Assembly: GCA_037043015.1 (NCBI GenBank)
Contig: CM073321.1
Span: forward strand, 38,336,420-38,400,419
DNA length: 64,000 bases
From: Bryum argenteum
Taxonomy: Eukaryota > Streptophyta > Bryopsida > Bryales > Bryaceae
Direction: 5' to 3'
How positions within the stretch are numbered: the stretch's first letter is position 1; every line of letters starts with the position of its first letter. The position numbers and the translations under genes were made by a program. A model generated the notes under the pieces. It searched no databases. It saw only the letters and a list, made by a program, of their open reading frames with translations, and was not told the DNA's origin. Of this stretch, positions 8,931 to 50,499 are shown one piece after another.

Positions 8931-8933
8931 ATG

Positions 8934-9970: not shown

Positions 9971-10050
9971 CACTAATTATCACTAATTATCACTAATTAT
10001 CACTAATTATCACTAATTATCACTAATTATTACTAATTAGCATTAATTAT
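9971..10050. repeat. Tandem 10-bp repeat, eight copies
   Basis: The unit CACTAATTAT is repeated five times exactly at 9971-10020, then three more times with one or two changes to 10050. The last unit runs into the first palindrome of the array. Confidence 0.95.
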
Positions 10051-11259
10051 CCCCGGGCCGGGGATAATTAATGAAAAGGAACTAAATTGAGTAAAAATTG
10101 AAACAATTATCTCCGGGCCGGGGATAAAATAGTAATTTTCCATGTATTTTTTTAAAAGAACGAACTAATTATCCCCGGGCCGGGGATAATTAATGAAAAA
10201 AAAACTAATTTGAGTAAAAATTCAAACAATTACCCCCGGGCCGGGGATAAAATAGTAATTTCCATGTATTTTTTTAAAAGAAAAAACTAATTATCCCCGG
10301 GCCGGGGATAATTAATGAAAAAACTAATTTGAGTAAAAATTCAAACAATTATCCCCGGGCCGGGGATAAAATAGACATTTTCCATGTATTTGTTTTAAAA
10401 AAAGATCTAATTATCCCCGGGCCGGGGATATTTAATGAATAAAGGAACTAAATTAAGTAAAAACTGAAACAATTATCCCCGAGCCGGGGATAAAATAGTA
10501 ATTTTGCCATGTACTTTTTTTAAAAAAAGAACTAATTATTCCCGGGCCGGGGATAATTTCTTAAAAACGCAAACGATAGGGCAAAAAAACAACAAAGATA
10601 TCCCCGGCCCGGGGATAATATTGATAATTGAAATGTCTTACCAACATAAAATGGCAACAAAATAATACTGCCCTAGATAATACTGCCTAACATAAAATAA
10701 TAACGCCCCAGATAATTCTTGAGAAAAACTAGAATGCGTAAGAAACTGTAAAAATTATCCCCGGGCCGGGGATAATTTTGAAAATAGCCATGTATTTATA
10801 AATGAAGAACAACATATTATCCCCGCCCCGGGGATAACTGTTTAGTTCCGCAACACTTTCACAAAATACCACAATACATTATCCACGGGCCGGGGATAAT
10901 TTTTGCACAGAGCAGCTATAAGACCTCTGCATGCAGAACTTATCCCCGACCCAAAGATAACTCTGCACAGGTCAGCTATGTGACCTGTGCATGCAAAAGT
11001 TATCCCCGGCCCGGGGATAATTTCTGCACAGAACTGGTAGGTGTCTTATGCAATAAGAAGTTATGCCCGGTCCAGGGATAACATTGTATTCCAGCCATGC
11101 TATTAGGCCAAATTATACTATATTATCCCCGGGCCGGGGATAACTTCTCCCCATTCACAACTACAAAGTCTATAGTTGAACAAATGACAACAGCAGATCA
11201 TCCTCGGGCCGGGGATAATACCATAACTTAAAACAAAATTATTTCCCGCCCCGGGGATA
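10047..11259. repeat. Array of 19 family-A palindromes at 61-62 bp spacing
   Basis: Palindromes (arms TTATCCCCGG / CCGGGGATAA) start at 10047, 10107, 10169, 10230, 10291, 10349, 10411, 10473, 10536, 10598, 10755, 10817, 10879, 10940, 11000, 11061, 11123, 11198 and 11239. Most steps are 58-63 bp, close to six helical turns. In the first half the spacers alternate between two types, giving a tandem repeat of about 122 bp. In the second half the spacers are mostly unrelated, yet the spacing is kept. Degenerate copies show changes in either arm. This resembles an iteron or parS-type binding array rather than CRISPR. Confidence 0.95.
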
Positions 11260-11317
11260 AAGGATTTACTATGGCAGTAGTATTCATGAGTTGTTAATTG
11301 TGATTGCAGAGAGGACG

Positions 11318-12718
11318 ATGGCACTCAGCGACACAAATTCCCTCGACATGTCCTTGGACAAGTTCCAGCACTCCTTCGGGTTCAACCCATTCCTGCGCGA
11401 TAACGACGACGAAAGCCTTAATCTCTGGTTCTTCAAGGATGTGGTGGTCAGCTGGACTCTCAAGATCGTGAAGAACCATGTCCTCGTCATGACCAAGATG
11501 GTCTACACGGACCCTTACATTCCCTTACACCAGAATGTAAGGGTAACAGCATTCGAGGCACATAGGCAGAAGTACATGTTGCTCAGGTGCGTCCTTCTAC
11601 AGCAGGACGAGGATAGGGAACCTTACCACTTTGGAATTGTGGTAGAGGTGGGAGTAGACTGCGGAGCACAGTTCGACCCGCAAGGCTTTCTTGAGGAACT
11701 GCACAAGACTCGGCATGGCTTTCTCAAGTTCTGGGAGGACAACATCAAGAGCTGGGAGAACATTAACCAGGAAGATATGGTTCGGAAGCTGACGACCATG
11801 CTATCAAGACTGTCCCAGTCGAATGAAGGATCAAGCAGTAAAGCGGCCAAGAAGAAGAAGGCACCCGCCGCGTCTGCAATTGTCGTGCATCCTGAAGCTT
11901 CAGCTCCGCAATCTAGTGGTGCTCTACCTGCTCCTCCGCGAGTGCGTGCGAAGAGGCTGATGAATGATGCGATCGTGGCGGGCAGTGCCGCCCCCAAGAA
12001 GAAGAGACAGCATACCGCTCCCCCAGCAGCCGCAAGTCAAGGATCTGCATTAACTTCCGTAGTCGAAGTGCCCGCCCGACAGAAGAAGGATTCATCCAAA
12101 CCTTCTGCTGAAGTGGCAGACTACGTGAGGTTCGCCTCTGAGCAGACAGTCTTCAACGCCAGCTTCAAGGACTCTTTCTTGTTCAAGAAAGAACAGAAGC
12201 TGGTGCCCATTTCCCAGCTTGAGAGGGGAAAGGACGCGTGGGTTGTGCGAAGTCTCGAAAGGGACATCGTAACCAACACAAAGCAATACCTCGCAAGGAT
12301 GGGAGATATCACCCGAAGGCAGACGATCATCATCACTCCCATTGACGCCAATGGAAATTTGCTTCCTAGGCGGCCAACAACATGGGAAGAGATCAAGGAT
12401 GGGAAATTTGCCATCATTGACGGCCAACACTCCGTGGAAGCCTCGAGGGAGCTTCAGAACGAGCCAATGACAGGGGAAAGGAAGAAGGAACTTCTTTCGT
12501 GGTATGCATACATTCTATACGAGACCGACCCAAAGCGCCTCACTTCGATCTCGGCATTCTACAACACCACGAACCCACTTAAGCATGCCCAGCCAACCTA
12601 GGGAAACCAGATAAAACCTGGGAGGTCTATTTGGATCGACTGTGGGCGTCCGTCCGCAAACGTGAACGAGAACGAAACGCGGAACAACGACTCCGTCTAC
12701 AATCCCACCAATTTCAAG
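11318..12718 (+). CDS. Exon 1: ParB/DGQHR-like domain
   Basis: The start is the ATG at 11318 (MALSDTNSLDMSLDKF), just after a splice acceptor; the frame is open further upstream only through non-ATG codons. Residues 1-165 form a globular region, about 165-280 an Ala/Lys/Pro-rich linker with basic clusters (AAKKKKAP, PKKKRQ, likely nuclear localisation). Residues about 295-400 are ParB-like: VPISQLERG, then RRQTIIITPID, then GKFAIIDGQHSVEASREL, then SISAFYNTTNP. The IIDGQH core followed by F-x-x-N fits the ParB/DGQHR (DndB-like) superfamily, with Ser in place of the final Arg. TAG at 12599 interrupts the last 40 codons, which then read GNQIKPGRSIW and reach a phase-0 donor at 12719. Confidence 0.75.
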
Positions 12719-13022
12719 GTAAGACTCTGGACACTTACTATAGATTATCCCCGGGCCGGGGATAATTCACCGTCTGTTTCAGTGATAGCCCACTGCCTTA
12801 GATTACAACTATCATGTAGATTACGTCTGTCAATTTCTTGGGAAATTGTTTTTTTGTCATGGTTTATGTAAATCTTCTCTTGTACTTCTTGCCACTGGCA
12901 AGATGTCTGATACAGTTATCCCCGACCTGGGGATAACTAGGCTCTAGTGCCCAGACATGCTTCGTGTAGGCTTCTAGTACTTCAGTCTTTGCATCTAACA
13001 ATTCATTCCAATGGACTCTCAG
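12719..13022 (+). other. Intron with two family-A palindromes
   Basis: The phase-0 intron begins GTAAGA and ends CTCTCAG. It holds palindromes at 12745-12765 and 12916-12936. The element B gene has an intron at the corresponding place and phase (29171-29356), also with two palindromes but of family B. Confidence 0.85.
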
Positions 13023-14370
13023 AAATTCACGGATCTTCTCAACATCCAGTTTCGGAACATCGATCCCAACAAGGTCGGAAAGACGATTCTGACTACATCG
13101 GACCTCAAGCACGAGATCCAGATCATCACCTTTCCCGACAGCATGTACGATAGGTTCGCGGAGTTCCTAGATCTCCATTCGCTTGGGAATTTCATCAACC
13201 CCGATACAGGCGCACCTTATCGTATGAACCCAACATACATTACGGGCGATAAGCATCATGTGAGCCGAGAGTTCTTCAGGAAGTTCGGGAATCTTTCTGA
13301 TGATGACATCGACAGGGTTATCACATTCCTCATCCATGTTGAAACCGCGGACGGAGCGATGAAGTATCCAAGGTTGTCCTTCCACAAAACCAAATACTTT
13401 CATCGCTTGAGCCACGGTTGTGGAGATTGGATTATCCGCCATAAGTGCAAGGCTGTAGTATACCAGGAGTTCAGGGCGGTTAGACCAACTCTTCCATTTT
13501 TCCTTCCCAACGACGGAGCAGTATGCCCTGAGAAATGGAAGATATGGAAGTCAAGGAAGGGCTTCTCGACGGCGTCGTGGAACATGCTGCTCAGCCACGT
13601 CGAGGCAAAATTCTACTCGACTTGACTGCAGAATCAGGGGAAGTGCAAGACGGCCGGGGAGATGAAGTCCATGTTCCCCAATACCGAGGACTTCTTCAAG
13701 TGCTTCCTCCAAGAGAAGACCAAGCATCGGGAGTCCACCAAGACATTCGATCTTCGGACCTACGACTCGAAGGCCATGACTCTCAGTGGCCAATGGTCCA
13801 CCGAGGCACCGGCAGGATCAGTTTCGTTGGGGCTCTTTGACTTGCGAGACACTGTCTTCTCCCTGTGCAAGGACTCCAATGCCGCGAAGGAGTTCTTCAA
13901 AGCTTTGGTAGCAAAGTTCGCTGCGATATCAAGTCCAGCTTACACAGACCCTACTGTATGGGTCTGGATCGTGAACGGCGGCAATGCGAACAAGCTTCAT
14001 AAGCTGAAGGCGATGATTCAGCTCAGCCACCCCACCTACACAATGAGCACGTCCAAGTACGTGGTGGCGAAAGCTGAGAGGATCTTCAACGCGCCAGCGA
14101 TTGAGAGATCTGCTAACGACGTGTACATAATCTTCTTGTTTAAGAAGACACCTGAACGGCAAGCCTTCATCGGGACCAACCCCACGGAATTCAAAGCCCC
14201 ACTTGTACCATATTACAGCGATAGTGGGCACTACAACGAGGCCAAGTGGTGTGCCAAGTTCTCGGAGCTGCGGATGGAATTTTACATTGGTCTCATCCGC
14301 CGGTACTGCAAGAAGGGTGACTCAACACTCAGGGATCTTCTCCGGCTCCAAATTCATGGTCGCCTCCCTG
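13023..14370 (+). CDS. Exon 2: helical region and degenerate amino-methyltransferase-like domain
   Basis: The exon begins KFTDLLNIQF after the acceptor at 13022 and is in one frame with a single TGA at 13623-13625. The second half follows the motif order IV to X to I of beta-class N6/N4 DNA methyltransferases. SVSLGLFDLRD stands where DPPY is expected, VWVWIVNGGN and DVYIIFLFKKTP follow, and LIRRYCKKGDSTL leads into motif I. The next residues, GIFSGSKFMVASL, are found only in another frame, so a 1-base indel lies near 14330. The element B exon aligns throughout (for example NFINPDTG with ELIDPDSK). The lost DPPY suggests an inactive or binding-only domain. An unrelated fold remains possible. 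Confidence 0.6.
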
Positions 14371-14621
14371 GTAAGCTCGACATCTACCGTCCTCTCTTGC
14401 AATGACTTTCTACCATTATCCCCGCCCCGGGGATAAATCAGCTGCCGTATTTTGCTAACTTTCACTGTATTTCATTCTTGATATTCGGCCCTGTATACAA
14501 AAAAGATTTCTTATTCAGATGTATTCGTGCATGACGGTTTCAAGTTCTATCAGTTATCCCCGGGCCGGGGATAACTTTAGCCGGCCCATCGTGACTGATC
14601 GTTTCTTCTCTTCCCTTGCAG
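14371..14621 (+). other. Second intron with two family-A palindromes
   Basis: The donor GTAAGC follows the MTase motif I coding sequence and the acceptor is CCCTTGCAG. Palindromes occur at 14416-14436 and 14554-14574. The corresponding element B intron (30755-30978) also carries exactly two palindromes, of the other family. Confidence 0.85.
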
Positions 14622-16687
14622 ATCCTGAAACATTCCTTCTACGGCTTGGTTGACAAGCACTACTACGGGGGCTACCTCCTCTCTGCGGATAAAAGGGCCA
14701 GGGTTGACTATAGGGACTTCATGCACAATGACTGTCCCTACGACACCAAGAAGAACTCATCGTCAGATGAAATGGCGGACCTCAGCCTCGTAACAAGGGC
14801 TTCATTCGAGGGAAGCCAACCTTCTTCTTCTGCAGCCGAGCCGCAGTCCGACCTGGGAGCTGAAAGTACGAGATCGCCTCAAACTCAGGCCCCACATACT
14901 TCTTCAGACTCTTCGAAGAAGAAGGAAGGTGATGACCCTTCTAGCGACTCCGACGGTGACGACCCGAATGACTCGGACTATCGTTCGGGTTATCAGGCGG
15001 CGGGCGAGGAGGTCATGCAATCTCCGCTTGCATCGCCCACAACACCATCAACTGAGGCATCACCAGCAGTACCGTCAACGGATGCATCACCAGCAGCACC
15101 ATCGGCGGAGGCAATGGAGTCATCTCCTCCTAGCTCCACTCCGATGGGTGACGAGCAGCAGGGCAGGGGCCTGATGCCGAGACCCGACGCCCTGGTAAGG
15201 AGCCTATGCCAGTGATCCCGTCGAGGCTCGTTACGTCGACGACCATGCCTGTTCAATCATCTGCGGATGTTGTCGTCGGATCATCGTGCAACCCCAAGTC
15301 GCGTAGGCCATTGAAACGCCGGCTCGATCTCGCAGCTGAGACCACGGCACCGAGTCAACCATTGGATAGGGCGTCTTGCGCCATGCCCTCTTCTAGTGTG
15401 GGGCCTGCGGTGGACACAACCCCTCAGAGTAAAGTTCCTAACAAACGGGGGAGGCCACTCTATCCACTTGTGGCGCCCACCCACGTATTCATAGATCTCA
15501 GTGACGAGGAAGGCACTGATCCGGCGGATGAGTACTATGTCGTCGATGTCCCAGCTCCTGAAGGCGAAGCCATTGAGCTCCCGACGTCGACACCTTCGAG
15601 CTCCCGTCGTCGTAACCGGCCCGTTGATGATTCAGACCAGGCAGCTCTTGATGATGGCACGCCTGTGAAGAAGGAGAAACCTGTCGTGGTGTGCAACTCC
15701 TCTACTGACCCAATGGCGAATGCAGCAGGAGTTGCGCCTCCTCCAGGTGTGAAGGTTGAAGAACACTTCCTGGCAAATAATCGGAGGCTAGCCGAAGAGG
15801 CCAGACTGAACAAGGAGAAGGCCCAAAAGGAGGCAGAGGACGCAAGGAAGCTCGCCTCGCATAACGTCGTCATGGAATGGCTGAGAAGTGGCAAGCCAAT
15901 GCCAGCCCACGTTGCTGCAATAATTGCAGGCGAGCATCCGGATCTTCCTTCCACCTCGGGCGCCCCGAGTTCCGAGCCTGATGCAGATTATCCCCGGGCC
16001 GGAGATAATACTGCCACCACCACCGCGTCTGTACCTAGCAGCGAGGTGGAGCCTTTGCCGCTGTCCTCGTCCAGAGTCCTCGCAGAGTCCTCACCATCGT
16101 CCAGAGTGCTAGCAAACTCTTGCTGATCGGACGTCGGCGCTGAGATGGGCTCAGGAATGGTGTCCTCCACTTCGACTCTTGGCTCCGCATTATCCCCGGC
16201 CCGGAGATAACTTACCAGCTGGTCGTACTAAGAAAGTTCTAGACCAGAATCGGGTCGATGAGCAGACTCAACCACTGGAGCAGCGGGTGCCACACTCGAT
16301 GAATCAGGACCCAAGGCAGGATCTTCGGCGGGAGGGGACACCTCAACAGAAGAGTCTGCATTATCCCCGGGCTTTGCCGCTGTCCTCGGGCACAGCCACA
16401 GCCACACCTCAGTTTGCGAGCACTCTGGCGAGGACTCTGGACGATGCCGATGACCAGCAGTTGGTGGACTACTCGTCTAGCCCGACCAACGCGATTCAAC
16501 CGCAAGAGCCACATGACAACGTAAGTACTTTCACCCTCCCCCCCCCCACGACTGCAATAACTCGTCGTCGTCACAACCGTCATGATTTTGTTTGTCTTGG
16601 CCTTAACCTAAACCGATTTGCTTGCCTGAACTTCGCTTATTCGTCTATTTTCTCCTGCAGGAGATCGACGACCCTTACTCGTTATGA
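14622..16687 (+). CDS. Disordered tail of the element A ParB-MTase protein
   Basis: The tail starts ILKHSFYGLVDKHYYGGYLL and becomes an acidic, Ser/Pro-rich region with short repeats (TPSTEASPAVPSTDASPAAPS). After a frame change near 15200 there is a basic stretch, a charged coiled coil (about 15770-15870, EEARLNKEKAQKEAEDARKL) and a segment in which palindromes at 15988 and 16190 are translated as DYPRAGDN and HYPRPGDN. A half palindrome is at 16361. Another frame change lies between 16126 and 16179. The last intron (16521-16660, GTAAGT to CTGCAG) joins in frame to EIDDPYSL and TGA at 16685. Frame changes are probably decay; composition suggests an unstructured tail. Confidence 0.6.
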
Positions 16688-16875
16688 TTTTTCTGGAGTT
16701 GTCAACGTTTGCTGTGGCGCGTCATGTATTATAGATTTTCGATAGTATTAGTTCCCAGCGTAGTGTTTTGGTCAAAGTTGACAAACACATCCCTTGTACA
16801 TGATTGATGTAAATAAATTTATTTTTGATAACAATATTTTTGCCTTCAAGTTGGAGTGTCATTTGATTTTCCTCA

Positions 16876-17031
16876 ATGTCTTTCTCAGTTCACCTCTGTG
16901 GGATTCATTCTGCGCCCACGGGCCGTGAGATTGCATCAGAATCCGATCGATCTGGCCCCAATGCCACGGATGCAATGCATGCCGTCATTGTAGATTTGCT
17001 CAGATCGCAGTGTCTCTGCTTTCAATCAGGT
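16876..17031 (+). other. Possible 5' coding segment of the HAD gene
   Basis: The reading frame from ATG at 16876 (MSFSVHLCGIHS) runs to a GTATCC donor-like site at 17032. The nearest downstream acceptor would give an intron of only 33 bp, too short for a plant. Its relation to the HAD gene is therefore uncertain; it may be leader sequence. Confidence 0.3.
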
Positions 17032-17063
17032 ATCCTCAACATTATTGTTTCCTTTGATGCCAG

Positions 17064-17891
17064 GTAGAATTGATTTCCGAATTTGGGTGTGTCCCGCGGC
17101 CGAGGTCTGCACTCGGGCAGACGGCGCCGCCTCGATGGTTGAATGTCGTCCTCGACATCAACGGGATCCTTTGTCATTGTGTGCATCTGCCATCGCTCAC
17201 GAGAAATTCTCCCATGTGCTCTCCTGGGGACCGGCTCTACGTGCCGGACATCCCAGCGAAGGTGCCTCCAAAGGCGGTCTTATGCTGCCCGGGAGTGAGG
17301 AACTTCTTGGAGACCATGTCCGCCCATGTTGCGAGGGTTGTGATATGGAGTTCGATGAAGAAGTCCACTGTTGAGGCCGTCATCGACTACCTCTTCAGTG
17401 GACTTCCTAAGCCTTTTGAGATCCTCGGACAAGAGTCTTGTGGATTGGTTGAGGTTAGCAGAGGTGTTTATTTGTCGTACCCAACCAATGCTCAAAAGAA
17501 GATATTTTTGAAAACATTGTCCTCTGCGGTGTTCCCGCTTAGTAACGGTGCTGTTGTGTTTGGGTTGGATAACACTCTCCTCATTGACGACAGTCTTGAG
17601 AAGAGTATTTGCAACCACACCGGAAACGCCATTTTCCTCCAGCCTTGGATAAAATCTAGCCGGGAGGACAATACTCTATCTGCCGTGCTTACTCCATGGC
17701 TACTCGCTCTTCTCGCCACTTGCAGGCCTGGGAATCTTCGGTCCTATGTAGACAATCATAGGATTGGTATTCCGCCTCTCAATAAGTATAGCAATTTAGG
17801 GAGGTTTATTTTAGATGGTATGGCGCAGTCGCATAGGAACTTAGGGCGTACTTACGAAACTCCTTCATTTCCTAAGTCATTGTCTAGATGA
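17064..17891 (+). CDS. FCP1/TIM50-like HAD-superfamily phosphatase domain protein (element A)
   Basis: The frame opens right after a TGCCAG acceptor at 17063 (a stop lies 6 bp upstream in the same frame) and ends with TGA at 17889. Near residue 30 is NVVLDINGILCHC, the FCP1/NIF motif I with the D-L-N-G variant seen in plant members. Next come CCPGVRNFLETM, then RVVIWSSMKKST (motif II) and FGLDNTLLIDDSLEKS (motif III/IV with the Asp pair). About 275 residues, the size of a small CTD-type phosphatase domain. The second motif I Asp is replaced by Asn, so catalysis is doubtful. Element B has a homologue in the same position after its ParB-MTase gene. The frame is unbroken. The function in the element is unknown. 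Confidence 0.75.
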   Translation, partial: VELISEFGCVPRPRSALGQTAPPRWLNVVLDINGILCHCVHLPSLTRNSPMCSPGDRLYVPDIPAKVPPKAVLCCPGVRNFLETMSAHVARVVIWSSMKKSTVEAVIDYLFSGLPKPFEILGQESCGLVEVSRGVYLSYPTNAQKKIFLKTLSSAVFPLSNGAVVFGLDNTLLIDDSLEKSICNHTGNAIFLQPWIKSSREDNTLSAVLTPWLLALLATCRPGNLRSYVDNHRIGIPPLNKYSNLGRFILDGMAQSHRNLGRTYETPSFPKSLSR

Positions 17892-18375
17892 CGGTTAGGG
17901 CGCTATGTATTCCTTTTTCAGGATCCCGTAGATAAATATGTAAATGGGTTGCTAGTGTATGAATAAGGTTGGTTCAAATAAAGAAGCCGATTATTTTATC
18001 ATCCTTTATGTACCACATCGCAATGTGATCAATTTCTATTACGTCATTTGTGGATGCTTGTTCACTTAGGATTTATGTCGATGATTGTTTCTATTGTATG
18101 ACTCTTTTTTTGTTGTCAGTTAGGACGTCATTTATGCCCGGCCCGGGGATAATCTTTGGAGGTATCAGCTTGTATGCATTCAGTCTTCTGTTCTTTTTAT
18201 GTTGAATTTGATTTCACTGGTTGTTTTCTTCTTATGTTCTTGTATGCTTTTTGCTTGTGAACATGACGTCAGTTCTCCCCGGCTTGAGTTATCCCCGCTT
18301 CGTGGATAACACTTCCATGTTTCTTGCGTCCATCTTTCCTGACCGACTCCTTGCATTTCTGGGTTTGTTCTACAG
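17892..18375 (+). other. Intergenic or intron DNA with two palindromes
   Basis: It contains degenerate family-A palindromes at 18132-18152 and 18289-18309, plus a half site just before the second. It ends in an acceptor (TTCTACAG) at 18375. It is either the 5' intron of the next gene or the 3' flank of the HAD gene. Confidence 0.6.
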
Positions 18376-19218
18376 GTCAAGGCGCCTTCCACCCTCGTCG
18401 AGTCCGGTGAAGAGGATGATGTCTCCAACAAGACCTCCGTCCCGGAATGTTCTGTTTCACTCTCAGCAAGTGTTGCCGCCTCTCTCGCGTCGAGGCATTT
18501 TGATATGTTCACGGCTACGGACGCAGCATCCGCAACGATGGATTTTACAAGAGATAGTGTTGATGACAATGTTGTTGACAGCCCGCCGAGTCGTGGTCCA
18601 GTTAGGACTCCGGTTTGCTCTCCGTCTCCCCTGAAGCGGCTTCGTACATCACCATCACGGAGGCGCTCTATGTCGCCCGATGCTCTAAATTCGAAAACAC
18701 CTCAGAGGCAGCTCTACTCCGGTGTCGGTGCTATGGACGTTCCTTTGCGAGATTCAATTGTTCCTCCTTCCACCATCAATGTGGGTGGGGCGTCCAATAC
18801 ATCACAACCCGCGATCCAAGTCAACAATTACAACAGTAGCAGGGCAACAAGATCCCTCGGTGGTGCCCTGCGACAACTTCGTTCGAAGAGGGATTTCTTG
18901 CCTCTTGCAAAGCCACTAGCATCGCGACCCCCACCATCAAGGCGAGCTTCTTACACACCCCGGCCGTATCCTGCGCATGGGGAATCGGCAGCTCCTTCAT
19001 CCTCTCGTCCTTCGCGTTCTCTTGACTCCCTTCGTAGGCGTGATGGGGAATGTTTTGACACCTGGTTTGCCCGTCGGAGTGAGACTTTGGGTACTAATTG
19101 CTTGCCAAACTCTCGTCGCAATGATCTTATTCGCGCGCTTATGAAGCAGCACGAGGCCGAAGCCAAGTTGTTGGAGAATTCAACCAAGCAAAATGGCTCT
19201 AAATCTAAAGAGACCTAG
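18376..19218 (+). CDS. Arg/Ser/Pro-rich protein of unknown function (element A)
   Basis: An open frame of 280 codons follows the acceptor at 18375 and ends with TAG at 19216. The upstream exon with the start codon was not identified; the first internal ATG is at 18505. The sequence is rich in SR/SP dipeptides (KRLRTSPSRRRSMSPD, RPSRSLDSLRRRDGE) with an Asn-rich patch (IQVNNYNSSRATRSL) and a C-terminal amphipathic helix (IRALMKQHEAEAKLLE). I recognise no family. Basic, disordered composition fits a nucleic-acid-binding or chromatin accessory protein. I did not find a clear counterpart in element B. Confidence 0.5.
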   Translation, partial: VKAPSTLVESGEEDDVSNKTSVPECSVSLSASVAASLASRHFDMFTATDAASATMDFTRDSVDDNVVDSPPSRGPVRTPVCSPSPLKRLRTSPSRRRSMSPDALNSKTPQRQLYSGVGAMDVPLRDSIVPPSTINVGGASNTSQPAIQVNNYNSSRATRSLGGALRQLRSKRDFLPLAKPLASRPPPSRRASYTPRPYPAHGESAAPSSSRPSRSLDSLRRRDGECFDTWFARRSETLGTNCLPNSRRNDLIRALMKQHEAEAKLLENSTKQNGSKSKET

Positions 19219-26473: not shown

Positions 26474-27091
26474 ATGGAGTTCAATGAATCACTCCCACCA
26501 CTCGTGGGATATCTCGAACGAGATGATTCAGCGATGGAAATGTGGTATGAGATAATAGATCAAAAGATTCCTTTGCGGCTCAAATCCAAGAACGCAAGCT
26601 GGTCGCTTCGTATTCGTAGTGAGGAAGATGGGTAGACCTGACCTTCACTCTCGTGCTAGGCTTTCGATCACAGAAAAAGACATCGTGTAAACCTCTAGAC
26701 ATGATCAAGGTCATCGATATTCACGTCAAGGGAGACCATGTCTTCTTGGACGTTGTGAACACCGAAGCAGACTATGTCTGGGGGTGCATCGTAATGCGCC
26801 CAGAGGACTGCACTGTGTTTGACGCAACCTCGATGACGTCGACCGGGAAGGATCTCGAGTGGCCTTTCTCTCTTGTCACTGAATCCTTCGTTGAATCCAA
26901 GCTCAAATTATTTCGAGGCAACAACCTCGACATGTGCCTTGACCTTGCAGATTTTGTGAGGAACGGATACTGGGTTCGTGCAAGAGGATTGCTCGAGACT
27001 CACGACAGAATCCAGAAGAGAAAGGCAGATCTATTCATGGCGACAGATCAAGCTGAAAGAAGCACGGATCAGAGTTCCAAATCGCAGAAAG

Positions 27092-27815: not shown

Positions 27816-29170
27816 CTTCTCGACCTCCAGCCAGGGACAAAGCACGATCAGCGACTGAACAGAGTCGTGATTCAGGCAAGGCAAAATTGAGTCGTTCCGA
27901 TGGAATGAGTGCGAAGGTGGCGTCGACGCAGGGATTGGAAAGCGAAGGCAGGCGTGCAAGCGGCAGATCCATACTCCCAGGCGGGCCCGCAATCGATCCT
28001 CCAACATCCGGGTTCGAGCGATCGATTGCGGTGCAGGAATACGTCAACACCGAAGCGGAGGAGGAAGAGGAGGACAAAATGGAGCTTTTTTGCCGTGGTC
28101 CTCCGGGGCAGAGCGCTTCGCCAACCGCGAACACATCTTCCGAGTTGCGGAGGACCAGACCAAAAGAGCGCGCGATCAAGTCCAAGTTGGCCGCGCAGAA
28201 GAAGAAGAGAAAGGCAACCCAACAAGATGTTGGGCAGTCCAGTCCCGAGATGCATGAGTCGGAAGGGGGGAGGGGTGCTCCAAGTAGTCGTGAGACATCA
28301 CCAGAGCTTGAAGGGGCTACGAGCCCTAACAAGATTACTGCCTCGTGAGTTGGTGGTCTTCCGGTAGGGCTAACAGCAGTCGTCGATGAAGCCACGGCCT
28401 TCGAGATAGCTGTTAAGAAGGTAATCCTGAAGGCTTACCTTCGGGGGGTGACATGGAGCGAGTACCCGGAGACGTTGCCTTTTGATCCTGAGTCGATCCC
28501 AGAGAAGCTCGCTGTAAAGCCAAAGACCAGCAAGCAGACAAAGAAGGGGACCACAGAGCAGATGTACGAGGACCTCAAGGCTCATGTGGAGGCAAACCTG
28601 GCGTTCAAGAAGAATGCCGAGTATATGTACATCTTCGGACAGCAGAGGTACTTCCAGCTCGGCGTGGAGGACATGACGAGTTCGGATCCATCAACGGGTA
28701 CAATCTACAGGCCGTTGGAAGAAGCAGGCGTGGCGAAAGTCCTCAAGCATATGACGGATTATGGCTTCATCAAGCAGATCCTAACGATCATGCCGAACAC
28801 AAAGACGAGGCCAAAGGACTAGATGGAATGTGTGAGAGCGGGAAAGTTCTTGATCATCAGCGGCCAACATACCTGGGCTGCCGCGAAGAGGATCGTCGAC
28901 GGGAAGGTGCCGAACATCCCCAAGAATATTAAGGCACGCGTGTCATTATGGACGTGCCAGATTGTGTGTTCGGATGTACCCGCCCACTTGCACTCGCTGT
29001 CGTAGAAATGCAACGACGGCAACGACGAGCAGCCGTATCTTACTTCTGCACCAGCCAATGTGGCGCACCTCCGCGAGATATAGTCCTTTTACGGCCGCCC
29101 AAAGGCATGCCGGAAGAACGGTTGTCTCAAAGAAGGATCGGAGGAGGAGAAGATAGCAAAGCAGTACGAG
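27816..29170 (+). CDS. Element B ParB/DGQHR-like exon
   Basis: One reading frame with TGA at 28346 and TAG at 28820, 29003 and 29081. A basic, acidic linker (TEAEEEEEDK, SKLAAQKKKRKA) precedes the ParB-like domain. The latter contains FKKNAEYMYIFGQQRYFQL, then VAKVLKHMTDYGFIKQILTI, then GKFLIISGQHTWAAAKRI. These align with FKKEQKLVPISQL, the RRQTIIITPI region and GKFAIIDGQHSVEASREL of element A. After the third TAG the sequence SFYGRPKA aligns with IDCGRPSA of element A, where the stop falls on a Trp codon. The exon ends at GAG|GTAAG in phase 0, like its A counterpart. Confidence 0.75.
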
Positions 29171-29356
29171 GTAAGAACTCGAAAGCATGTTCTAGTCGTA
29201 CGCTGTTGTCTTTCTGGGCGGTCGCTCAGAAACTTCAGAAATTTCTTGCGCAGCCGCTCAGAAATGGAGTCCAGGAGCGCTTTGTGACTTCGCGAGACGG
29301 TGAAGTGGATGGGGGGCTAGTGTACATTCTGACCACGGCATTGTTGTTCTGCGCAG
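29171..29356 (+). other. Intron with two family-B palindromes
   Basis: The donor is GTAAGA and the acceptor TTCTGCGCAG, phase 0. Palindromes are at 29211-29232 and 29242-29264. It corresponds in position and phase to the element A intron 12719-13022. Confidence 0.85.
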
Positions 29357-30754
29357 CTCTTCAAGGAACAGGCAATCGAGACTCTGCAGTCGACTGCAGT
29401 CACGAAGAGCAAGAGTAGGGAGAAGGTGAATTTCAGCAGCATCAACAGCCTTGGCGAGATCAGGCTCATCATGTTGAACGAAGGGGTGTACACGAAGTGG
29501 GCACAGATCTTCAAGAAGTATAAAAATCTAGAGCTCATCGACCCCGATAGCAAGAGGATGCTGAAGCACATGGTGGATGAGAAGGATAGGCCATACAAGT
29601 TCCCCTACCTTGCGATCTCGTCCTCTTTCTTGAGACTGCTCGTTGGCTTCTACGATTCCGAGCAGGAACTTCTCGCGGATCACATCTGGGTTGCGGATCC
29701 AAAGGTGTACCTCGGAATAAAGAAGCCGCAGTACCCGAAGAAGTGGACGCGCGCCCAGAAAATGGCAACTTGGGTGACGAGGAAGAAGTACAAGGTGAAG
29801 ATCATCAGGATCATCATGGCCACCGTCATGAAGAACAAGAAGTCAAAGGTGTCGCAGGAGATCAAGAAGGGCGACTACCCCCCGAGCTACTGGAAGTTGG
29901 CGAAGAAGTGCCTGAGGATCAGCACGTTTCACGTCGACCATGCCATGAGCGTTGCGGGACTGACTTGGCTGAAATCGCAAGTGACGCAAGGGAAGACGAA
30001 TCTGCCAGTGTCCCCCGATGCAAAGGCTGTGCTCCAGAGGATGGTGGACAACCGCACGCGCCACAAAACGTGCATGTCCATTGCGGACCACACGTTCCGA
30101 GTGTACAGGCCGACAACGGCCGAACTGACGGGGCACTTCATATGGCAGAAGAAGAAGATGTTCATGTACAAGAAAGGGCCGGCGTTGTGTGAGTAGGCAG
30201 AGGTTGGAATAATTGACTTCCGAACCTTCCTTCCATTGGCTGACGACGCAACGCCAGTCCTAACCGCGGAGACGTATATGTATCTCCTAAGCCTAGTACT
30301 GGAAGGGAATACCAGCAGCGTCGTGACGTTCATGATCATTTATTCGCATCGTATGGAGAGTGTGGTGCTGGAGAGTGGAAAGAAGTACTTCCCCGGACAC
30401 TCGTTGTCGACCACGGTGGTCTACACACCCAGCAAAGGCGAGCCCGAGAACGTTCTGAAGGACGACATCCGCATCCTTTACATCTAGACTAAAAGCAGGA
30501 TCGTCAGTTCCTGCGAGGACGTAATGGATGTCGAGAATATTATGCATCCGCCGGAGTTTAATGAGGAGGGTGAATTGACACCCTCAGATGCTTCGGCAGA
30601 GACTGTCGAGACGTATCGCTTGGATCACCGCCATCACATCGCGAAGTGCGAATTGAGGACGGAGGTGTACATGAGGTTCATCGACAGGTACTGCAGACAG
30701 AGCGGGACGGTACTGCTTTTCTTCTGCCGCATGAAGGCGTTGTCAGCATGCGCT
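29357..30754 (+). CDS. Element B MTase-like exon
   Basis: A single frame begins LFKEQAIETLQS and ends LSACA before a GTAAGT donor, with TAG at 30194 and 30485. The N-terminal half (YTKWAQIFKKYKNLELIDPD, DRPYKFPYLAISSSFLRLL) aligns with element A exon 2. The MTase-like half has EVGIIDFRTFLPLADD at the motif IV place, DDIRILYI, then MRFIDRYCRQSGTVLLFFC and ALSACA, which fit the motif X to motif I order (helix, gd-VlDxFxG, AC). The catalytic DPPY is not recognisable. The element A copy keeps the same segments. I consider a beta-class DNA methyltransferase relative likely, activity unlikely. Confidence 0.65.
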
Positions 30755-30978
30755 GTAAGTACCGATTCCCATCGTTTTTATGCAGGTCATGCGTTCCGCT
30801 ACTTTATATCATCAATGTTTCTGGGCGGTCGCTCAGAAACGCTCTGGCATCTCCGACCTCCAAGTGATCAGATCGATTCCCGGGTGTAGTCATTTTTCAT
30901 GTGGTGCCTCTCGTTCTTTCTACGCGGCCGCTGAGAAACAAGTTGCTGAATGCGAATGCTTGCTTGTTTGTGATGCAG
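30755..30978 (+). other. Second intron with two family-B palindromes
   Basis: GTAAGT donor, GATGCAG acceptor, phase 0. Palindromes are at 30818-30839 and 30917-30938. It matches the element A intron 14371-14621. Confidence 0.8.
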
Positions 30979-33173
30979 ATGCTTTGCAGGAGTAGCGTCT
31001 CGTGCATAGGTGGGTCTCAAAAGTTCATGCAGTACCACCAAACAGTGTCTACGAAGGCGTGCAGTTACTGGCCGGATGTTGTCATCCCCCATGGCTTTAA
31101 TTTCTCCTGGCAGGAGATAATGAACTCAAAGGCTCTGACTCGAGAGCCGACCGACCATGACCGGTATATGAAAAGCTCCTGGGTCATGCATGACTTCTAC
31201 AAAGGGGAGCTGTTGGAGGACAGCGACGACGAGGCGTCTCCCGGCGGATATGTGGTCGTCGACGCGGGGTCAATCGTCGAGGAGCCCGTAAACAGTGCTG
31301 TGGAATGTGCCGAATCGGACGAGGACTTCACAGTACCAGAGCGAGGAGCTTCGTCTTCCCGTTCTAGGAAGCGCATAAAGTCAGCCATCTCGGTCACGAC
31401 TTCGTGCGACGACGACTTCCACATCCAGGGTGTCGGCGACAGATGGAACGGAGTTCTCTCTCCAAGATCATGCCGGGAGTCAGACGCTCGTCCGTCCGCA
31501 CGGAGCGAAGGGATTTCGGAAATGGATCGTGGCAATGACGGTGACGACGATGACGATCTTCAAAGTTATGGAGGTGGACGCCGGTCAGTCCCAGGCACCT
31601 CTGGAGGACATCTCACCTGCGACCGATGCGGTAATGGACGAGGTCGCCGACATCTCGACCGCTCCGGATGGCCACTGTGCCGGGACGTTTCTGAATGGCC
31701 GCTCAGAAAGGTCCATCTCCCAAGTAGCTTCGACACGTCGGTCCGGTGGATCGGCACCTCCTGCTTCTCTGGGTCCGGTTCATCCGGTAGTCCACGGCTC
31801 TAGCACACCATCTTGTTCGTCTGCTTCGAGGGCACCCACCGCAAGAGCGTTCCAGCAGGCGGAATCACCCACTTCAATGGCACCCCCTTCGCAGTCGGTC
31901 GAGCTCCAGGGAGCCCCTGAGACTCTTCCTCCATTGGATGGACTTTCCCCAGAATTCAGAGAATTCATCGAGCCGCTGACTCGACGACTCAAAACTGCCG
32001 AAGCCATGGCCGTGCACAGCGCACAGGAAGCAGAGAGGGCGAAGAAGATGTACATGTTGGGGAGCGGTACCTCAACGTCGTCTCACGTGATCAATCTCGA
32101 TGACAAAGACGACGAGGAGCTGGAGTCCAGATGCAATATGATGGTGAAGTTCAATAAGGAGAACGACAGAAAAGTGCGGGAGCATCTGACTAATGTTCTC
32201 CGCGACAGGCCTGCGCCGAAGGATGTGCAGACTGGTGGGGATGGCAAGGATGAGAAGCCCACCGTGAAGCCGACAATTGACTTGATTGCGGCACAAGTTA
32301 AGTCACTTCGCAAGGGTGACATGATGAAGCTCAAGGACATGGCCACTAGCATGAACATGATGAAGAAGAATCAGCAAGAGCTGCAGTCGATGATGCAGTC
32401 GATGATGCAGTCGCTTGTTGACATGCAGATGCTTCGTGGGCAGGCTCCATACGCCTACTACCCAGGCCCTTATCCCCAGTACGCTTATCATCCGGGGGCG
32501 TATCCGGGTGCCTTAGGCATGCAGCCCCCGCACCTGACGTACTCAAGCCAGTCAGGCATGCACCCTCCGCCTCCGGTGTTTCCGGGGCAGTCGAGCATGC
32601 ACTCTCCACCCTTGCCGTTCCAGAATTTGACGGCCATGCACCCTCCGGCCCTGGTGCTCCCAGATGCGACGTCATGTACCCTCCGCACCATCCCTATCAG
32701 CAACCTGCGGCCATGCACCCTCCGGCTTCGGTGCTCCCAGAGGCGTCGGCCGTGTACCCTCCGCAACCTCCCTATCAGCTATCCGTGGCCATGTACCCCG
32801 CCCCCGGATACCCGATTGCGGGTATGCCTCCACCGCCCCCTGTGCACCAGATTCCGCGGGAACACAGGCGATAGTCGGCCCCATCCCAAACGTCGCCGCA
32901 CCTGAGGAACTGCAGATCACTGCTCCCTCAGATATCCCGACGTCCGACCAATCGATGGCCCATCCCACCTGCAGCACCCCTATACCTTCTCCGCCGGTTC
33001 TGCCCGCCGACTCGAGCACACCCGTGGCTCCAGAATCTAAGCGGCCGCCCAGCACCGAGCCAGTGACTGCATCCGTCCCGACAGCAGAGCCGGATGTTCA
33101 TACGGTTGAGCAAGTCGTGGCGGATCCCGGTGCCGACACAGTCGCCCTCGAGTCTACAGCCCCGCCGCAGTGA
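30979..33173 (+). CDS. Tail of the element B ParB-MTase protein with Pro/Met-rich repeats
   Basis: The first part (MLCRSSVSCIGGSQKFMQYH, later WVMHDFYKGELLEDSDDEAS) resembles the start of the element A tail. A frame change occurs around 31430-31800. The second frame has a predicted coiled coil (about 31960-32060 and 32130-32420, EEAERAKKM-like and MMQSMMQS motifs). Next come proline-rich repeats built on HPP, YPP, FPGQ and PYQ units (about 32440-32830), spread over three frames because of indels. A palindrome at 31688-31709 lies in coding sequence. The end is uncertain. Confidence 0.5.
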
Positions 33174-33633
33174 GTCTTCCGCCATACTTGAACCCGGATG
33201 ATCTCCAGCTCAGCCAATATGATCTACTGCTCGATGATGAGAAGGTGACCATTCCCCGTCCTGATGAGGGAAAGCCTTTCCGTTTAGAAGTCGTATTGCG
33301 AATCGTTTGACCATGGTTTTCTGATGTGGGGGCTCTTCTTGTGTCACTTGCAGGCGAACACTACAACAGAGCCCGTGGAATTAGTCATAGTCAACAGGAA
33401 TAATTTGATGGGTTCCCAACCACATTAGTGTGGCACCCTGTCCCGAGAAAATGGGAGTCCAACCGAAGGATGGACACGCCCCTCTTTACCTTGGGCTTGT
33501 CGGATCCATTTTGTAAATTTTTGATCGAGGTATATAAAATAATTTCAAAATCTGCCTTCGTATGGTCTGTCGTCGTCCTCGCTTTCTGCAACTCAGTTTC
33601 CAATTTCACTTTGGTGGGGTTTTCTTCCTTCAG

Positions 33634-33819
33634 GGCGTGGATGTGAATAAGGAGATAGCGTCCTGTAATGCACAACGGCTAGGCACCGAGGTCCGCCAGG
33701 TAGCACCGGCAACTACGTTAGAATTTCCGTCGAAAGGTATACCGGGAGTCTCACTTGTAAACAATTTGCCGGTCGAGGACCCGCCTGCGCTTGCCCCTTC
33801 TGCGTATCAGTGCCCGAAG
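33634..33819 (+). CDS. Candidate exon between the MTase tail and HAD of element B
   Basis: A clean 62-codon open segment lies between a TTCCTTCAG acceptor and a CGAAG|GTGAGG donor, phase 0 at both ends (GVDVNKEIASCNAQRLGTEV at its start). No family is recognised. It may be a 3' exon of the ParB-MTase gene or a 5' exon of the HAD gene. Four palindromes lie around it (33034, 33933, 33972, 34063). Confidence 0.45.
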
Positions 33820-34440
33820 GTGAGGCCTCTATTCGAGCATTGAATTCCATTTTTCAATTACGGTGTCTAGTCTTCTATATGATGGAGTGTAGTCACTCCG
33901 CATGCATGCCCCTCCACCCTCTACCCATGTCATTTCTGGTCGGCCGATGAGATCAGTCCAAGGGCTGTAGGCATCTAAGCGATCGTCCAGATGCTAGCGA
34001 TGCCTCCCCGCCCGGGCATCGGCTCTCTGGCCATCTATGCGGATGACCACTGCGCACGGACCATTCTGAGCGGCCGCGCAGAAACGTCCATCTCCCTCAA
34101 TGGCTTCCGTACGTCGTCCCAATGCATCCGTCGATGCTCGATAGATTAGGTTGGTCGATCAGGAATATGATGATCGCATTTCGACTTAACCCTCTTGATA
34201 TTCTGGAGCCCTCACGTTTCAAGACTCACACTCCTGGAATATTGACCTCCACATATATTTCACGAAGGTCATTGTGCCTTCTTATTTCCGGACCGCCGTG
34301 TCCGATTCATAAGTCACACCTGCTGGCTTTGTCCGACATGTTTGATTCGTCAATACAATCATTCATTGTGTTTTGCATTCGAGCCTGCTGTTCTTCTGTT
34401 CACACGAGGAGAGTATTGGCAGGTCTTGTACCCGCGTTGA

Positions 34441-35394
34441 CCAGTACTCGGGGCCCAGGCCATAAAGTACTGCGTCATTCTGGAGCTGGACGGTGTCCTG
34501 GGCTGGATCGAACATGGCAAAGGCTGCATCCGGCAACCGCCTAAGGACTGCGTGCAGCCATCCGGCTGCAACGCTCGCAGTTACAGTCCCTAGACTCGGA
34601 CAATCTTCCAGGACTACGTCCTAAGCTGTCGACCGGGCGTGCGAGAATTTCTTAAGTTCGTCACTAGCGTGTCTCATGTCACTGTCTGGACTAGGTTACC
34701 AAAGTCTGTCACGACGGAAATGGTTCAGTTCATGTTCCGGGGACTGCCCCAACCGAGGGAGATCTTGTCTATAGAGGACTGCAATGTGATCATTGAGTCG
34801 TGGCCGCAGTCAGTGCGACCCTGTCCGGTTGTCGACTGCCACCTCCTGTCCCATCCTTGCCCCGGTCACCCCGTTAGCACCCAACCGAACTTAACCGCAG
34901 ATCGAACTTTCGTCCGTCGCGCCTACCACCCGGAAGGTAAGCTCCACCTGAAGGTGCTCCACAAGACAGTGTGGGGGCAGCCCAGTTTCTCCACCCGTTT
35001 CATAACTCTCAACGCGTCCAACATACTGCTCGTGGATTCGAACCCCGAGTCTGCCATTTTGAACTCCCGTCACAGCGCAATATTTCCAACCGTCTACGAT
35101 GGCAATCACACCGACACAGTGCTCCGGATGTCGGTGGCACCATTGATCAAACACATCGTGAAGATGAATCTCAGTGTTCCGAAGTATGTGAAGGCGGTTG
35201 ATTTCGTGGGGCAACGGCCTCACCGTTCGCCTCGAGCCATTGGCCTTGAATCCAGGGTCAAGATTTGTGCCACATACATGGACCCGTCTCTTTTTACTCT
35301 CGACCCGTTATACGTTCCGTCGAACCACTATCAGACAGGGGACGACTATTTTACTCGCCGTAGGGTTGCAAGTAAGTTGATGCCACGTATCTAA
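34441..35394 (+). pseudogene. FCP1/TIM50-like HAD domain gene of element B
   Basis: One frame, TAG at 34591, ends with TAA at 35392. Motifs in order: KYCVILELDGVLGW (motif I region, first Asp changed to Glu), LSCRPGVREFLKFV, HVTVWTRLPKSVTTEMV (motif II), and ASNILLVDSNPESAI (motif III/IV). Each aligns with the element A HAD (NVVLDINGILC, LCCPGVRNFL, RVVIWSSMKKST, LLIDDSLEKS). The shared position after the ParB-MTase gene supports a conserved element module. With motif I altered and an internal stop, it is probably inactive. Confidence 0.7.
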
Positions 35395-35672
35395 TGCAGC
35401 CTGTAGCACGTGGTGGTCGTTATATTCGCTATCAAAAGTTCCGGGGTTCGCCCGTGCGGGACGCGTCAGAGGGAGCCGAGTCGTGTGAGTATGACGGGTC
35501 CGCTTTAGATGCACATGGAGACGTGACGTCGAAACGATCGGATGGTCCTCGCTGACGGTGAGTTGCCTAACCGTCCCACACCTCCCCCCCCCTCTCCACC
35601 TTTGGTGACCATAACTGCGGCATTGTTCTCTCTTCTGTGAATCTGACTTTTGTCTTGACCTCGTTTCTCCAG

Positions 35673-35831
35673 GGGGTATTGGTGCGGTCGACTGCCATGG
35701 TTTCGGACGGCCGTGCAGAAGTTTGTGGGACGGGATCTTACATGTGCAAGGGAGTCGACACAAACACTCTGGCGTGGCGGCTGCTCAATATAGCCTGGAA
35801 CTTTGTGTGGCGGCGCTCCACCCAGAAGTAA
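35673..35831 (+). CDS. Candidate terminal exon of an element B gene, unknown
   Basis: After a pyrimidine-rich acceptor (CGTTTCTCCAG) the frame encodes 52 residues (GVLVRSTAMVSDGRAEVCGT at the start, LAWRLLNIAWNFVWRR near the end) and stops with TAA. A degenerate family-B palindrome (35700-35721) is part of the coding sequence. No homologue was recognised. Confidence 0.35.
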   Translation, partial: GVLVRSTAMVSDGRAEVCGTGSYMCKGVDTNTLAWRLLNIAWNFVWRRSTQK

Positions 35832-36193
35832 TCAATCGGGCACGCACGAGGTCGACCGGGCTTCTCTAGTTGCGGCCTTTGTCGTCTTCGGCGGCGACAT
35901 TACTCTGCACTGTACTCGTCAGCAATACTCACTTAGAGAAAGCGATTGGTCACTCAGACTTTTCCCAAGTCTTTGGGCAGTTTACTTCTATTCATGTTGA
36001 TCAATAATGAACAGCTATGTTTGTCTAGTCCCAAACACATTACACTGAAGTTGGACTTGATGATTTCTAATAAATTTGGTCTCCCATCCCGCACACAAGG
36101 AGTGGATTTCTTCGCATATTGGTCTCATTTCTGCTCGTCTTTGCTTGTATATCGCTTCCGTGCCGCCCAATACCCGAGTCTCGACAGTCAAAT

Positions 36194-37310
36194 GTTTTGA
36201 GCGGCCGCTCAAATCATGAGTCGCGTGCTCTTGCGTCAACCCTGAACTAAGACGCCGGCATGAGTCATAGTTTATGAGCAACTTGGTTCTCCACCGTCGT
36301 TCAGGACTTCCGTGACTTGGTCCGGGACGACCCTAAACTACCACGGCCTTGTAAATTCAACCTTGCTGACAATCATGATTCTTGACGGTCGTTTAGATCC
36401 TTGGGTGCCACGGTCCGTGACGTCCCTATACTTTAGTTGATCCAAAGCAATCATCGTAACGCTAAACTTAAAGACCATTTCGGGCACTTAATGGTTTTGA
36501 GGATCTTTTTAAGGTATTGAGAGAGTTTGAAGTAGAGAGTAGACTTGGGATTGTGCTTCTTCCTGCTCTTGCATTGTACTTACACCCAAAGAATTGCTGA
36601 CTTCTCTATCGCGGATTTCCTCGGTCTTGAGCTCTTGGATTACACAATCAGTAGCATTGAAACATTATTCAATTCTACTGATATTGTAATCCAAAAGCTT
36701 GGCACTTAGGGAATCCCTATAGAGAACACTGCAATTTTGTTGGGTGTAGGTACTGAGCGAGAGCTGGAAGAAGCACAATCCCAAGTCTACTCTCGACTTC
36801 ATAGTCTCTTGTTACCTTAGACAATCAAATGTTTTGAGCGGCCGTTCAGATCGTGGGTCGCGTACTCCTGCGTCAAGCCTGAACTAAGACGCCGTCGTGA
36901 GTCATAGTTTTATGAGCAACATGGTTCTCCACCGTCGATCAGGAGTTCCGTGACTTGGTCCGGGACGACCCTAAACTACCACGGCCTTGTAGATTCAACC
37001 TTGCTGACTTTCATGATTCTTGACGGTCGTACAGAAGCTGGGGTGTTGCGGTCCGGGACGACCCTAAACTAGCACGCCCTGGTAGATTCATCCATGCTGA
37101 CTTACATGGTTCTCGACGGTCGTTCAGAAGCTTGGGTGCCACGGTCTGTGACGACCCTAAACTAGCACCCCCCTTACATTCATCTCTGCTGACTTACATG
37201 GTTCTCGGCGGTCATTCAAGAGCTCGGGTGTTGCGGTCCGGGACGACCCTTAACTACCACGCCCTCGTACATTCAACCTTGATACATGGTTCTCGGCGGT
37301 CGTTCAGAAG
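36194..37310. repeat. Tandem repeats with family-B palindromes
   Basis: A segment at about 36194-36400 is repeated at about 36831-37037; both include GAGTCATAGTTT, ACTTGGTCCGGGACGACCCT and two palindromes. From 37016 on, a unit of about 90-93 bp repeats, each with a palindrome (37016, 37109, 37201, 37289) and a GACGACCCTAAACTA motif. The fold-back element 36524-36807 separates the two large copies. No coding potential. Confidence 0.85.
36524..36807. mobile_element. Fold-back (MITE-like) element with arms of about 75 bp
   Basis: The left arm, about 36524-36600, contains AGAGTAGACTTGGGATTGTG and CTTACACCC. The right arm, about 36728-36807, reads as its inverted complement (CACAATCCCAAGTCTACTCT) with scattered mismatches. 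The roughly 130-bp centre is AT-rich. This is a probable insertion between two copies of the element B tandem repeat. Confidence 0.75.
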
Positions 37311-38159
37311 CTGGGGTGTTGCGGTTACTCCGTCTCGTTTGTAGAGTTTGAAGCCGTCCTAGTTCCATGATGGATACAAGATGGCAAAGGAACGGACCGG
37401 TGGTGGTAACAACGTTCTTTATCTCCCTCAATTCTTCCGGGGAGGGGAATGGGTATCTCGTCAATCAAGCAGTGCTACACCAAGGTGATGCACCTCAAGG
37501 AAAGCCAACGTGACAAGATTAAGCTCGAAGCCATATCTTTTCACGTACGAAGCTAATCGGTCGCTGGCAAGGGAGGTAGAGACGTTTCACGACTTGAATG
37601 AAACTAAGGGAAAAAAAAGACATGTCTGACGTCGCGTTGTTGGTGTATCGGTACCTACTATTCAATCGCGGGATTTTCATGGTTCACGTTCCGATCCGTC
37701 GTTCAGATCCGGGGTCTGGAACGACCTTAAACTAGCAGTACTGTGACCCTCGCTTCAACTTGGCACAGTTTTGGGCGGCCGTTGAGATTTGTGATGATGT
37801 TGTGACTACTGGAGAAAGAGCATTCAAGAGACGATGTGTGATTAACGGTTTCCTCACGAGAATGTTTTGCAAGTACACTCGCATACTTCTGATGCTACTG
37901 CGAATATCGGAGCGCAATTGGAGGGTGGATGTCTTTCGCTGGCTTTTCCCCCTGATTCATCTCTTAAGATGAATGAAACTCAGGGAAAAAAACAAGGCAA
38001 CCGATGTGGAGAGCGCAAAGCCATTCAATGAAACTAATGGGAAAAAAGGAGACTATGGAGTGTTCGCTCATTGAGTAGCTCTCTAGATGAAGGACAAAAT
38101 CTGCATAATATGAAAGCGCAGCGGTATGGAGCGAGGAGAGAATAAAAGTAGAGAGCTGG

Positions 38160-45796: not shown

Positions 45797-45809
45797 CGCC
45801 TTGATTTCT

Positions 45810-50497: not shown

Positions 50498-50499
50498 AT

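Follow-up and report, generated by a model that had tools for sequence, protein, structure and literature searches.

To our knowledge, the VANC proteins are the only plant transposon proteins reported to relieve silencing at specific sequences. We analyzed a stretch of 64,000 nucleotides from Bryum argenteum (assembly GCA_037043015.1, contig CM073321.1, positions 38,336,420 to 38,400,419), hereafter the window, that contains two related elements, A and B, each with a gene for a ParB-like protein and its own long palindromes. Partition systems of the ParB-parS type combine a protein of the ParB/sulfiredoxin (Srx) fold with clustered palindromic sites beside its gene. The ParB-like protein shares the predicted fold and the adjoining palindrome clusters, but has GQHS/T instead of a GERR-type motif and belongs to a multicopy transposon, not to a replicon. 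In maize, TnpA of Spm/En likewise has many sites within the transposon that encodes it; the protein is unrelated, and its sites are subterminal and consist of a short non-palindromic motif. The N4CMT of bdelloid rotifers presents a beta-class amino-methyltransferase (MTase) fold in a eukaryote (structures 8s9m, 8s9n and 8s9o) and is reportedly an active enzyme laying N4-methylcytosine (4mC), whereas the protein studied here is transposon-encoded and lacks the catalytic motif.

VANC proteins of the Arabidopsis VANDAL elements, which are Mutator-like, are transposon-encoded and family-specific, and their target motifs form tandem repeats both within introns and ahead of the transposons' genes; their targets differ between relatives, and the transposase is more conserved than the specificity protein (PMC5735166). 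The motifs bound by VANC21 are in non-coding parts of VANDAL21, introns among them, and the protein induces methylation loss (PMC5735166, PMC10398659); the motifs lie in tandem repeats that differ between related elements (PMC5735166). Family-specific motifs repeated in introns and upstream regions were also found here. The differences are that VANC contains DUF1985/DUF287, which Pfam matched in none of the 11 ParB-half or 16 MTase-half family members (sets A3 and A4) of the present protein; that the VANC21 motif is a 9-mer (PMC5735166), here a long palindrome; that element A carries a DUF7869 protein; and that hypomethylation was shown for VANC and is suggested here by analogy. The ParB-like system would be convergent with VANC, from unrelated domains of bacterial type. 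In Bce_0392 of Bacillus cereus, a ParB/Srx domain is joined with an adenine methylase in one protein (PMC5512222), the same combination as in the plant protein; the latter differs from such bacterial and phage fusions in its PH-like N domain, its introns, the loss of both catalytic sites and the palindromes across the transposon. The author of an earlier note on this DNA knew of no such system described, and none turned up among the papers listed from the open-licence literature on ParB, methyltransferase, DGQHR and palindromes with transposons, judged by titles and the starts of abstracts. Self-specific transposon regulators are already known; new are the protein, its likely ancestry and the long palindromes.

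Gene families and their palindromes across the genome

The genome searched comprised 258.8 Mb in 25 contigs, and protein searches returned at least 102 matches for the A protein (98 of 916 candidates scored) and 88 for the B protein. We distinguish at least four families of the gene (A, B, B2 and B3), each with its own palindrome, or word, derived by a pattern-free palindrome search in the gene flanks and by reading of locus L074. The words were TTATCCCCGG-S-CCGGGGATAA for A, TTTCTGRGCGGYCGCTCAGAAA for B, TTTCTGGGCGGCCGCCCAGAAA for B2 and a sequence near TTTACGAACGGCCGTTCGTAAA for B3, with a CGG/CCG core common to all. Genome-wide, the full A palindrome presented 693 exact sites (0 for the reversed control), B 20 forward and 20 reverse matches at 33 places (control 0), B2 21 matches (control 0) and the B3 core 247 (control 1). 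The words of A, the B group and B3 were strongly different. Within the B group, exon DNA separated B, B2 and a further locus, L062, and the word shifted along: at one inner position the left/right bases were mostly G/T in B, G/C in B2 and A/C in four of the six L062 sites.

For a pairing test, listed sites were grouped into 47 clusters (less than 20 kb apart) and the genes within 15 kb were counted. The lists held the first 50 of the 693 A sites (all on C1, the window's contig), the first 50 of the 247 B3 sites, and all sites of B and B2. Class A corresponded to the 102 matches merged to 82 places and class B3 to 32 places from weaker matches of the B search, while B and B2 loci were classed by exon DNA, with L062 and the B-type matches that were not fetched left out. 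A gene of the own family lay near 35 of the 47 clusters (A 5/7, B 13/20, B2 11/13, B3 6/7), and a gene of another family near none (0/47). After 20,000 rounds of label shuffling the matched clusters averaged 10.2, with a maximum of 21. Random places fell within 15 kb of a given family's gene in 0.2-1% of cases, an estimate made with slightly different classes (some B-type matches were put in B without DNA, and L069 and L062 wrongly in B2). The tie between palindromes and cognate genes, for which the earlier note had proposed a genome-wide search, was thus borne out. Protein and word co-varied in the sequences of the four families with one exception (see below), and that both changed together in related transposons suggests a lock-and-key self-recognition.

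Placement and conservation of the sites

In the window, the A arm TTATCCCCGG occurred 48 times on both strands, against 0.16 expected, and 39 full sites (up to four mismatches) were located at 4086-18309; all 39 are within element A and none elsewhere in the window, as the earlier note had held. Each of two arrays lies directly upstream of a gene: array 1 (4086-4613; 12 sites, spacing mostly 43-47) of the DUF7869 gene, and array 2 (10047-11260; 19 sites, spacing mostly 60-63 bp) of the ParB-like gene. Another eight sites are single. The exact arm formerly given for element B, TTTCTGAGCGG, was found only twice and is better replaced by the consensus TTTCTGRGCGGYCGCTCAGAAA, but a B palindrome does exist and is confined to its own element within the window: 15 sites (up to five mismatches) relative to TTTCTGAGCGGCCGCTCAGAAA were located, 15/15 at 24131-36852.

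The ParB-like gene of element A is on the plus strand. Exon 1 (11318-12719, donor GTAAGA at 12720) encodes the PH-like N domain, a low-confidence linker and the ParB/Srx-fold domain; intron 1 (12720-13022) bears palindromes at 12745 and 12916; exon 2 (13023-14370, its end placed by eye) encodes a helical part and the beta-class amino-MTase-like fold without catalytic motif, with a frame slip near its end and an open frame reaching 14402; and intron 2 (14371-14621, GTAAGC ... TTGCAG, borders by eye) bears palindromes at 14416 and 14554. The B gene, on the same strand, has an N-terminal exon (26623-27291) whose likeness to the N domain of A was judged by inspection alone and which had no match in a Pfam scan, a ParB-like exon with SGQHT (28349-29170), intron 1 (29171-29356) with palindromes at 29211 and 29243, an MTase-like, stop-interrupted exon 2 (29357-30754) in which DFR by eye replaces DPPY, and an approximate intron 2 (30755-30989) with palindromes at 30818 and 30917. 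The motif GKFAIIDGQH was located at 12401-12430 as the earlier note had it; GKFLIISGQH is present in B, although preceded by a stop codon (TAG, 28820-28822). Decay has affected the two genes in the window alike: A has in-frame stops at 12599-12601 (TAG, exon 1) and 13623-13625 (TGA, exon 2), and the ParB-like exon of B has further stops. At loci L021 and L023, exons 1 and 2 of the A-type gene form one open frame.

The same placement recurred in 30 A copies inspected with 1.5-kb flanks (up to four mismatches). The 45 kb upstream of the match contained 365 sites and the sequence beyond it 49; the 40.6 kb made up of matched exon 1 and 100 further bases contained none. In 29 of the 30 the first downstream site was 136-156 bases past the end of the query match, which in the window copy of A is about 25 bases into intron 1; in the exception, L041, the match ends 45 residues earlier and the site is at 273. 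A second site followed in 19/30. Upstream spacings in 29 copies centered on 62 bp (264/328 within 58-66), i.e., about six turns of DNA. The intron after the ParB exon bears palindromes in every family read, two each in A, B and B3 and, by eye, about six in B2 (L057) and about five in L062; intron 2 bears two each in A, B and B3. At the first intron site of 29 A copies (L041 left out) the arms were on average 0.94 identical and the central base 0.54, compared with 0.72 for the 25 bases before and 0.50 for the 60 after, in windows whose selection by a site with up to four mismatches slightly favors the arms. The arms are conserved and the spacer base is free. In relatives from other sources, translated introns spelled word A in 4 of 25 proteins (LSPGRG-stop or LSPVRG-stop in P0008, P0009 and P0013; YPRPGD in P0003), and the introns of P0014, P0016 and P0018 may contain a further word (YRRVDD, SSGRR, SSNRR). 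Shuffled proteins showed any word pattern in 3 of 50,000 cases, a control not fully valid for the further word because it was defined after sighting.

Protein folds, element content and transposon backbone

By structure prediction, the ParB-like protein consists of a PH-like domain, a ParB/Srx-fold domain and a beta-class amino-MTase fold. The ParB/DGQHR-like domain of the earlier note stood as to fold, which a second-look structure aligner recovered from the predicted model, and failed as to the active site. The ParB/Srx active site holds a conserved arginine in DGQHR/GERR, a position to which we take the GQHS/T of these proteins to align. GQHS is present in 9 of the 11 rows aligned; of the other two, P0002 stops short of the motif and P0005 reads TGQNI, and by eye the motif is SGQHT in B and NGQHT in B2, L062 and B3. 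CTP-clamp chemistry is not indicated, since the GERR-type motif is replaced. The degenerate beta-class amino-MTase-like domain was corroborated: structure comparison matched this half to 8s9m, 8s9n and 8s9o. Of the catalytic motifs of this class, [DNS]PP[YFW] and FxGxG, the former was present in 0/16 relatives, with D/N-x-R in its stead, and the second motif-I glycine was K (G-x-K, not G-x-G) in 14/14 rows reaching the motif; B, L062 and B3 likewise read D-F/L-R by eye. With both enzyme folds devoid of catalytic residues, the protein reads as a double pseudo-enzyme. For the MTase half, Pfam gave no significant match in the 16 members, and no relative emerged when sequence profiles were run against PDB sequences; the profiles of the ParB half matched two ORC6 sequences (E 0.004, linker region) and one uncharacterized protein (E 1.1). 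A single scan of a viral collection, with P0008 as query, returned no relative. The N-terminal domain (residues 13-174 of P0001, a relative of element A exon 1) resembles the PH domains of TFIIH Tfb1, Rtt106 and FACT, a likeness of the model that would connect the protein with transcription or chromatin.

Element A (612-19947, plus strand, 19.3 kb) is a DNA transposon with many copies, sharp common ends and terminal inverted repeats. Among the best 40 candidates scored for each end, 36 of 39 other genomic matches start at query 304-313, and 35 of 39 stop at query 1145-1154 (position 1148 in 23 cases). The inverted repeats of the window copy are imperfect (AAGGGGATATTAAGTATTTT / ACGGGGATATTCGTTATTTT, 16/20 identical), place the right end at 19949 and adjoin a possible 4-bp target duplication, ATAA; these data correct the bounds of 1.1-19.4 kb proposed earlier. 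The repeats (612-640 and 19925-19949, right end CGGGGATA) include GGGGATA, part of the half-site CCGGGGATAA. From left to right, the gene for the DUF7869 protein (minus strand) is followed by a spacer, then by the ParB-like gene and finally by a NIF-type phosphatase. The candidate transposase with DUF7869 (PF25273) occupies two adjoining open frames (1154-4006, minus strand), of which 1751-4006 matched the domain (E 2e-43) and 1154-1750 had no match in the Pfam scan. At least 151 matches to DUF7869 were found genome-wide (150 of 1808 first-look candidates scored), none in 14 control genomes, and no mention of it turned up in the open-licence literature; it is probably a large, hardly described transposase family. 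As a palindrome binder DUF7869 is not favored, because element B has palindromes with no DUF7869 frame seen among its open reading frames (ORFs) in the window, some of which were scanned with Pfam, an argument to be read with the reserve that element B may be incomplete and that B3 was read only in part. The segment 5300-9000, between both arrays, is AT-rich (20-30% GC) and partly packed with TATTATA-type repeats.

Element B (plus strand) was traced by the palindrome TTTCTGRGCGGYCGCTCAGAAA, whose first site is at 24131, and by a right-hand region that recurs near other B-type genes; it reaches at least about 38584 instead of 37.8 kb. It carries the ParB-like gene and a NIF/FCP1-like phosphatase ORF (34594-35394, plus strand, PF03031, E 9.8e-8); that of element A is at 17058-17891 (plus strand, PF03031, E 1.7e-12). 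The two ORFs are diverged, and their product might act, for example, on RNA polymerase II. Complex nested direct and inverted repeats fill 36183-39400, on the right side of element B. Elsewhere in the window, ORFs at 45602-50500, 53781-55791 and 62736-63962 resemble by eye a Ty3-type retrotransposon, a hAT transposase and a PIF/Harbinger transposase. C1 (44.1 Mb) holds 56 of the 82 merged A-gene places and none of the 28 NAC-domain (PF02365) matches of the genome; this largest chromosome looks gene-poor and transposon-rich, and is perhaps a sex chromosome. The same domain, whose family is plant-specific, had no match in 14 control genomes, in keeping with a plant origin of the genome.

Among the matches listed, 40 of the 82 A places had an element end on the expected side; of the 22 places at 70% identity or less, four had a listed end and 18 had none among the best 40 candidates scored per end. 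In those four the ParB protein was only 46-67% identical to the window copy, with ends 93-97% identical. Part of this divergence comes from decay, as the stops in these genes show, but an identity of 46% seems lower than decay by itself would give with ends so similar. B and B3 genes share about 38% protein identity; even so, window 38309-38583 was matched at 92-94% near six B3 genes (9.5-10.8 kb away in five, 22 kb in one) and at 78-95% by B-type copies, while stretches nearer the gene matched B3 copies at only 79-90%. The sequences suggest that the recognition cassette either evolves much faster than the backbone or is exchanged.

Proposed role, alternatives and significance

The reading we favor, and hold to be fairly probable, is that the ParB-like protein is a self-specific DNA-binding regulator of large plant transposons, anti-silencing or activating, made of bacterial-type domains. 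The protein would be nuclear and dimerize on palindromes carried only by its own transposon family; with palindromes in phased upstream arrays and in the gene's own introns, binding would label the entire element as self. This label would maintain transcription of the element, most likely by counteracting silencing in the manner of VANC, an outcome proposed because the site layout resembles that of VANC21. A lineage that changes its protein would tend to change its word too, so that each family acts on itself only. Several observations weigh against this reading. The words of B, B2 and L062 differ at a single inner position, which makes the B-B2 difference small. The A-type genes L072 and L073, only 44% identical, keep the A word in decayed form, so the word is not always changed by protein divergence. 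For 12 of the 47 clusters, the 15 kb on either side contained no gene assigned to a family. The model of the ParB half is weak (mean pLDDT 59.6); Foldseek alone found no significant match for it (best E 0.19, unrelated); and Pfam, NCBIfam and PHROGs recognized no ParB domain in its 11 members, the sole ParB-like library match being phrog_1033 (E 0.048) in one of the 11.

Other explanations make different use of the same sites. An autorepressor or copy-number sensor, shutting down its own gene and that of DUF7869 as copies accumulate, would fit the presence of sites ahead of both genes and within its introns, and DndB, of the ParB superfamily, was proposed as a negative transcriptional regulator (PMC10853773). 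Sites in both introns of A, B and B3 are, however, not needed for repression, many copies persist (at least 102 matches), and sequence alone does not separate repression from activation; we regard this explanation as unlikely. Similarly improbable is a transposition accessory factor like TnpA of maize Spm, whose binding to the palindromes would synapse or prepare the element. Site arrays inside a DNA transposon resemble the subterminal sites of TnpA, and the GGGGATA of the element A termini is shared with the half-site. The arrays, on the other hand, are 3.5 and 9.4 kb inside the left end and upstream of genes, with further sites in introns, and the element ends do not track the ParB-like protein, since they stay at 93-97% in the four listed copies in which the protein falls to 46-67%.

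That the palindromes are passive repeats or RNA hairpins, e.g., for the control of intron splicing, and not sites of the ParB-like protein, has little probability in our view. Tandem repeats do expand by themselves, and conserved arms with a free spacer base also fit a hairpin; but the 62-bp upstream spacing, the different palindromes held by the same introns in different families and the pairing of palindromes with gene family speak for the protein. Methyl marking, in which the MTase domain would methylate its own palindromes as a self label, could call on the predicted amino-MTase fold and on N4-methylcytosine, reported as an epigenetic mark in a eukaryote (PMC8885841); it is very improbable given that catalytic residues are absent from both enzyme folds. 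From the self-recognition interpretation of the earlier note we thus retain a regulator acting on its own sites and set aside methyl marking.

A bolder version of the self-specific regulator, which we advance tentatively, sees in it an equivalent of ParB-parS carried by the transposons of a eukaryote. A double pseudo-enzyme (ParB/Srx plus amino-MTase) descended from bacterial proteins may form, with the palindromes that match it, a cassette that diverges fast or is exchanged on near-identical backbones, making separate self-recognition groups in one genome independently of VANC. Bryum argenteum provides an unrelated protein with an identifiable fold and at least four protein-palindrome pairs in a single genome, with some copies open through both halves. 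If the self-specific regulator is real, transposon self-recognition evolved at least twice, and these elements would be a source of sequence-specific DNA-binding proteins with long recognition sites.

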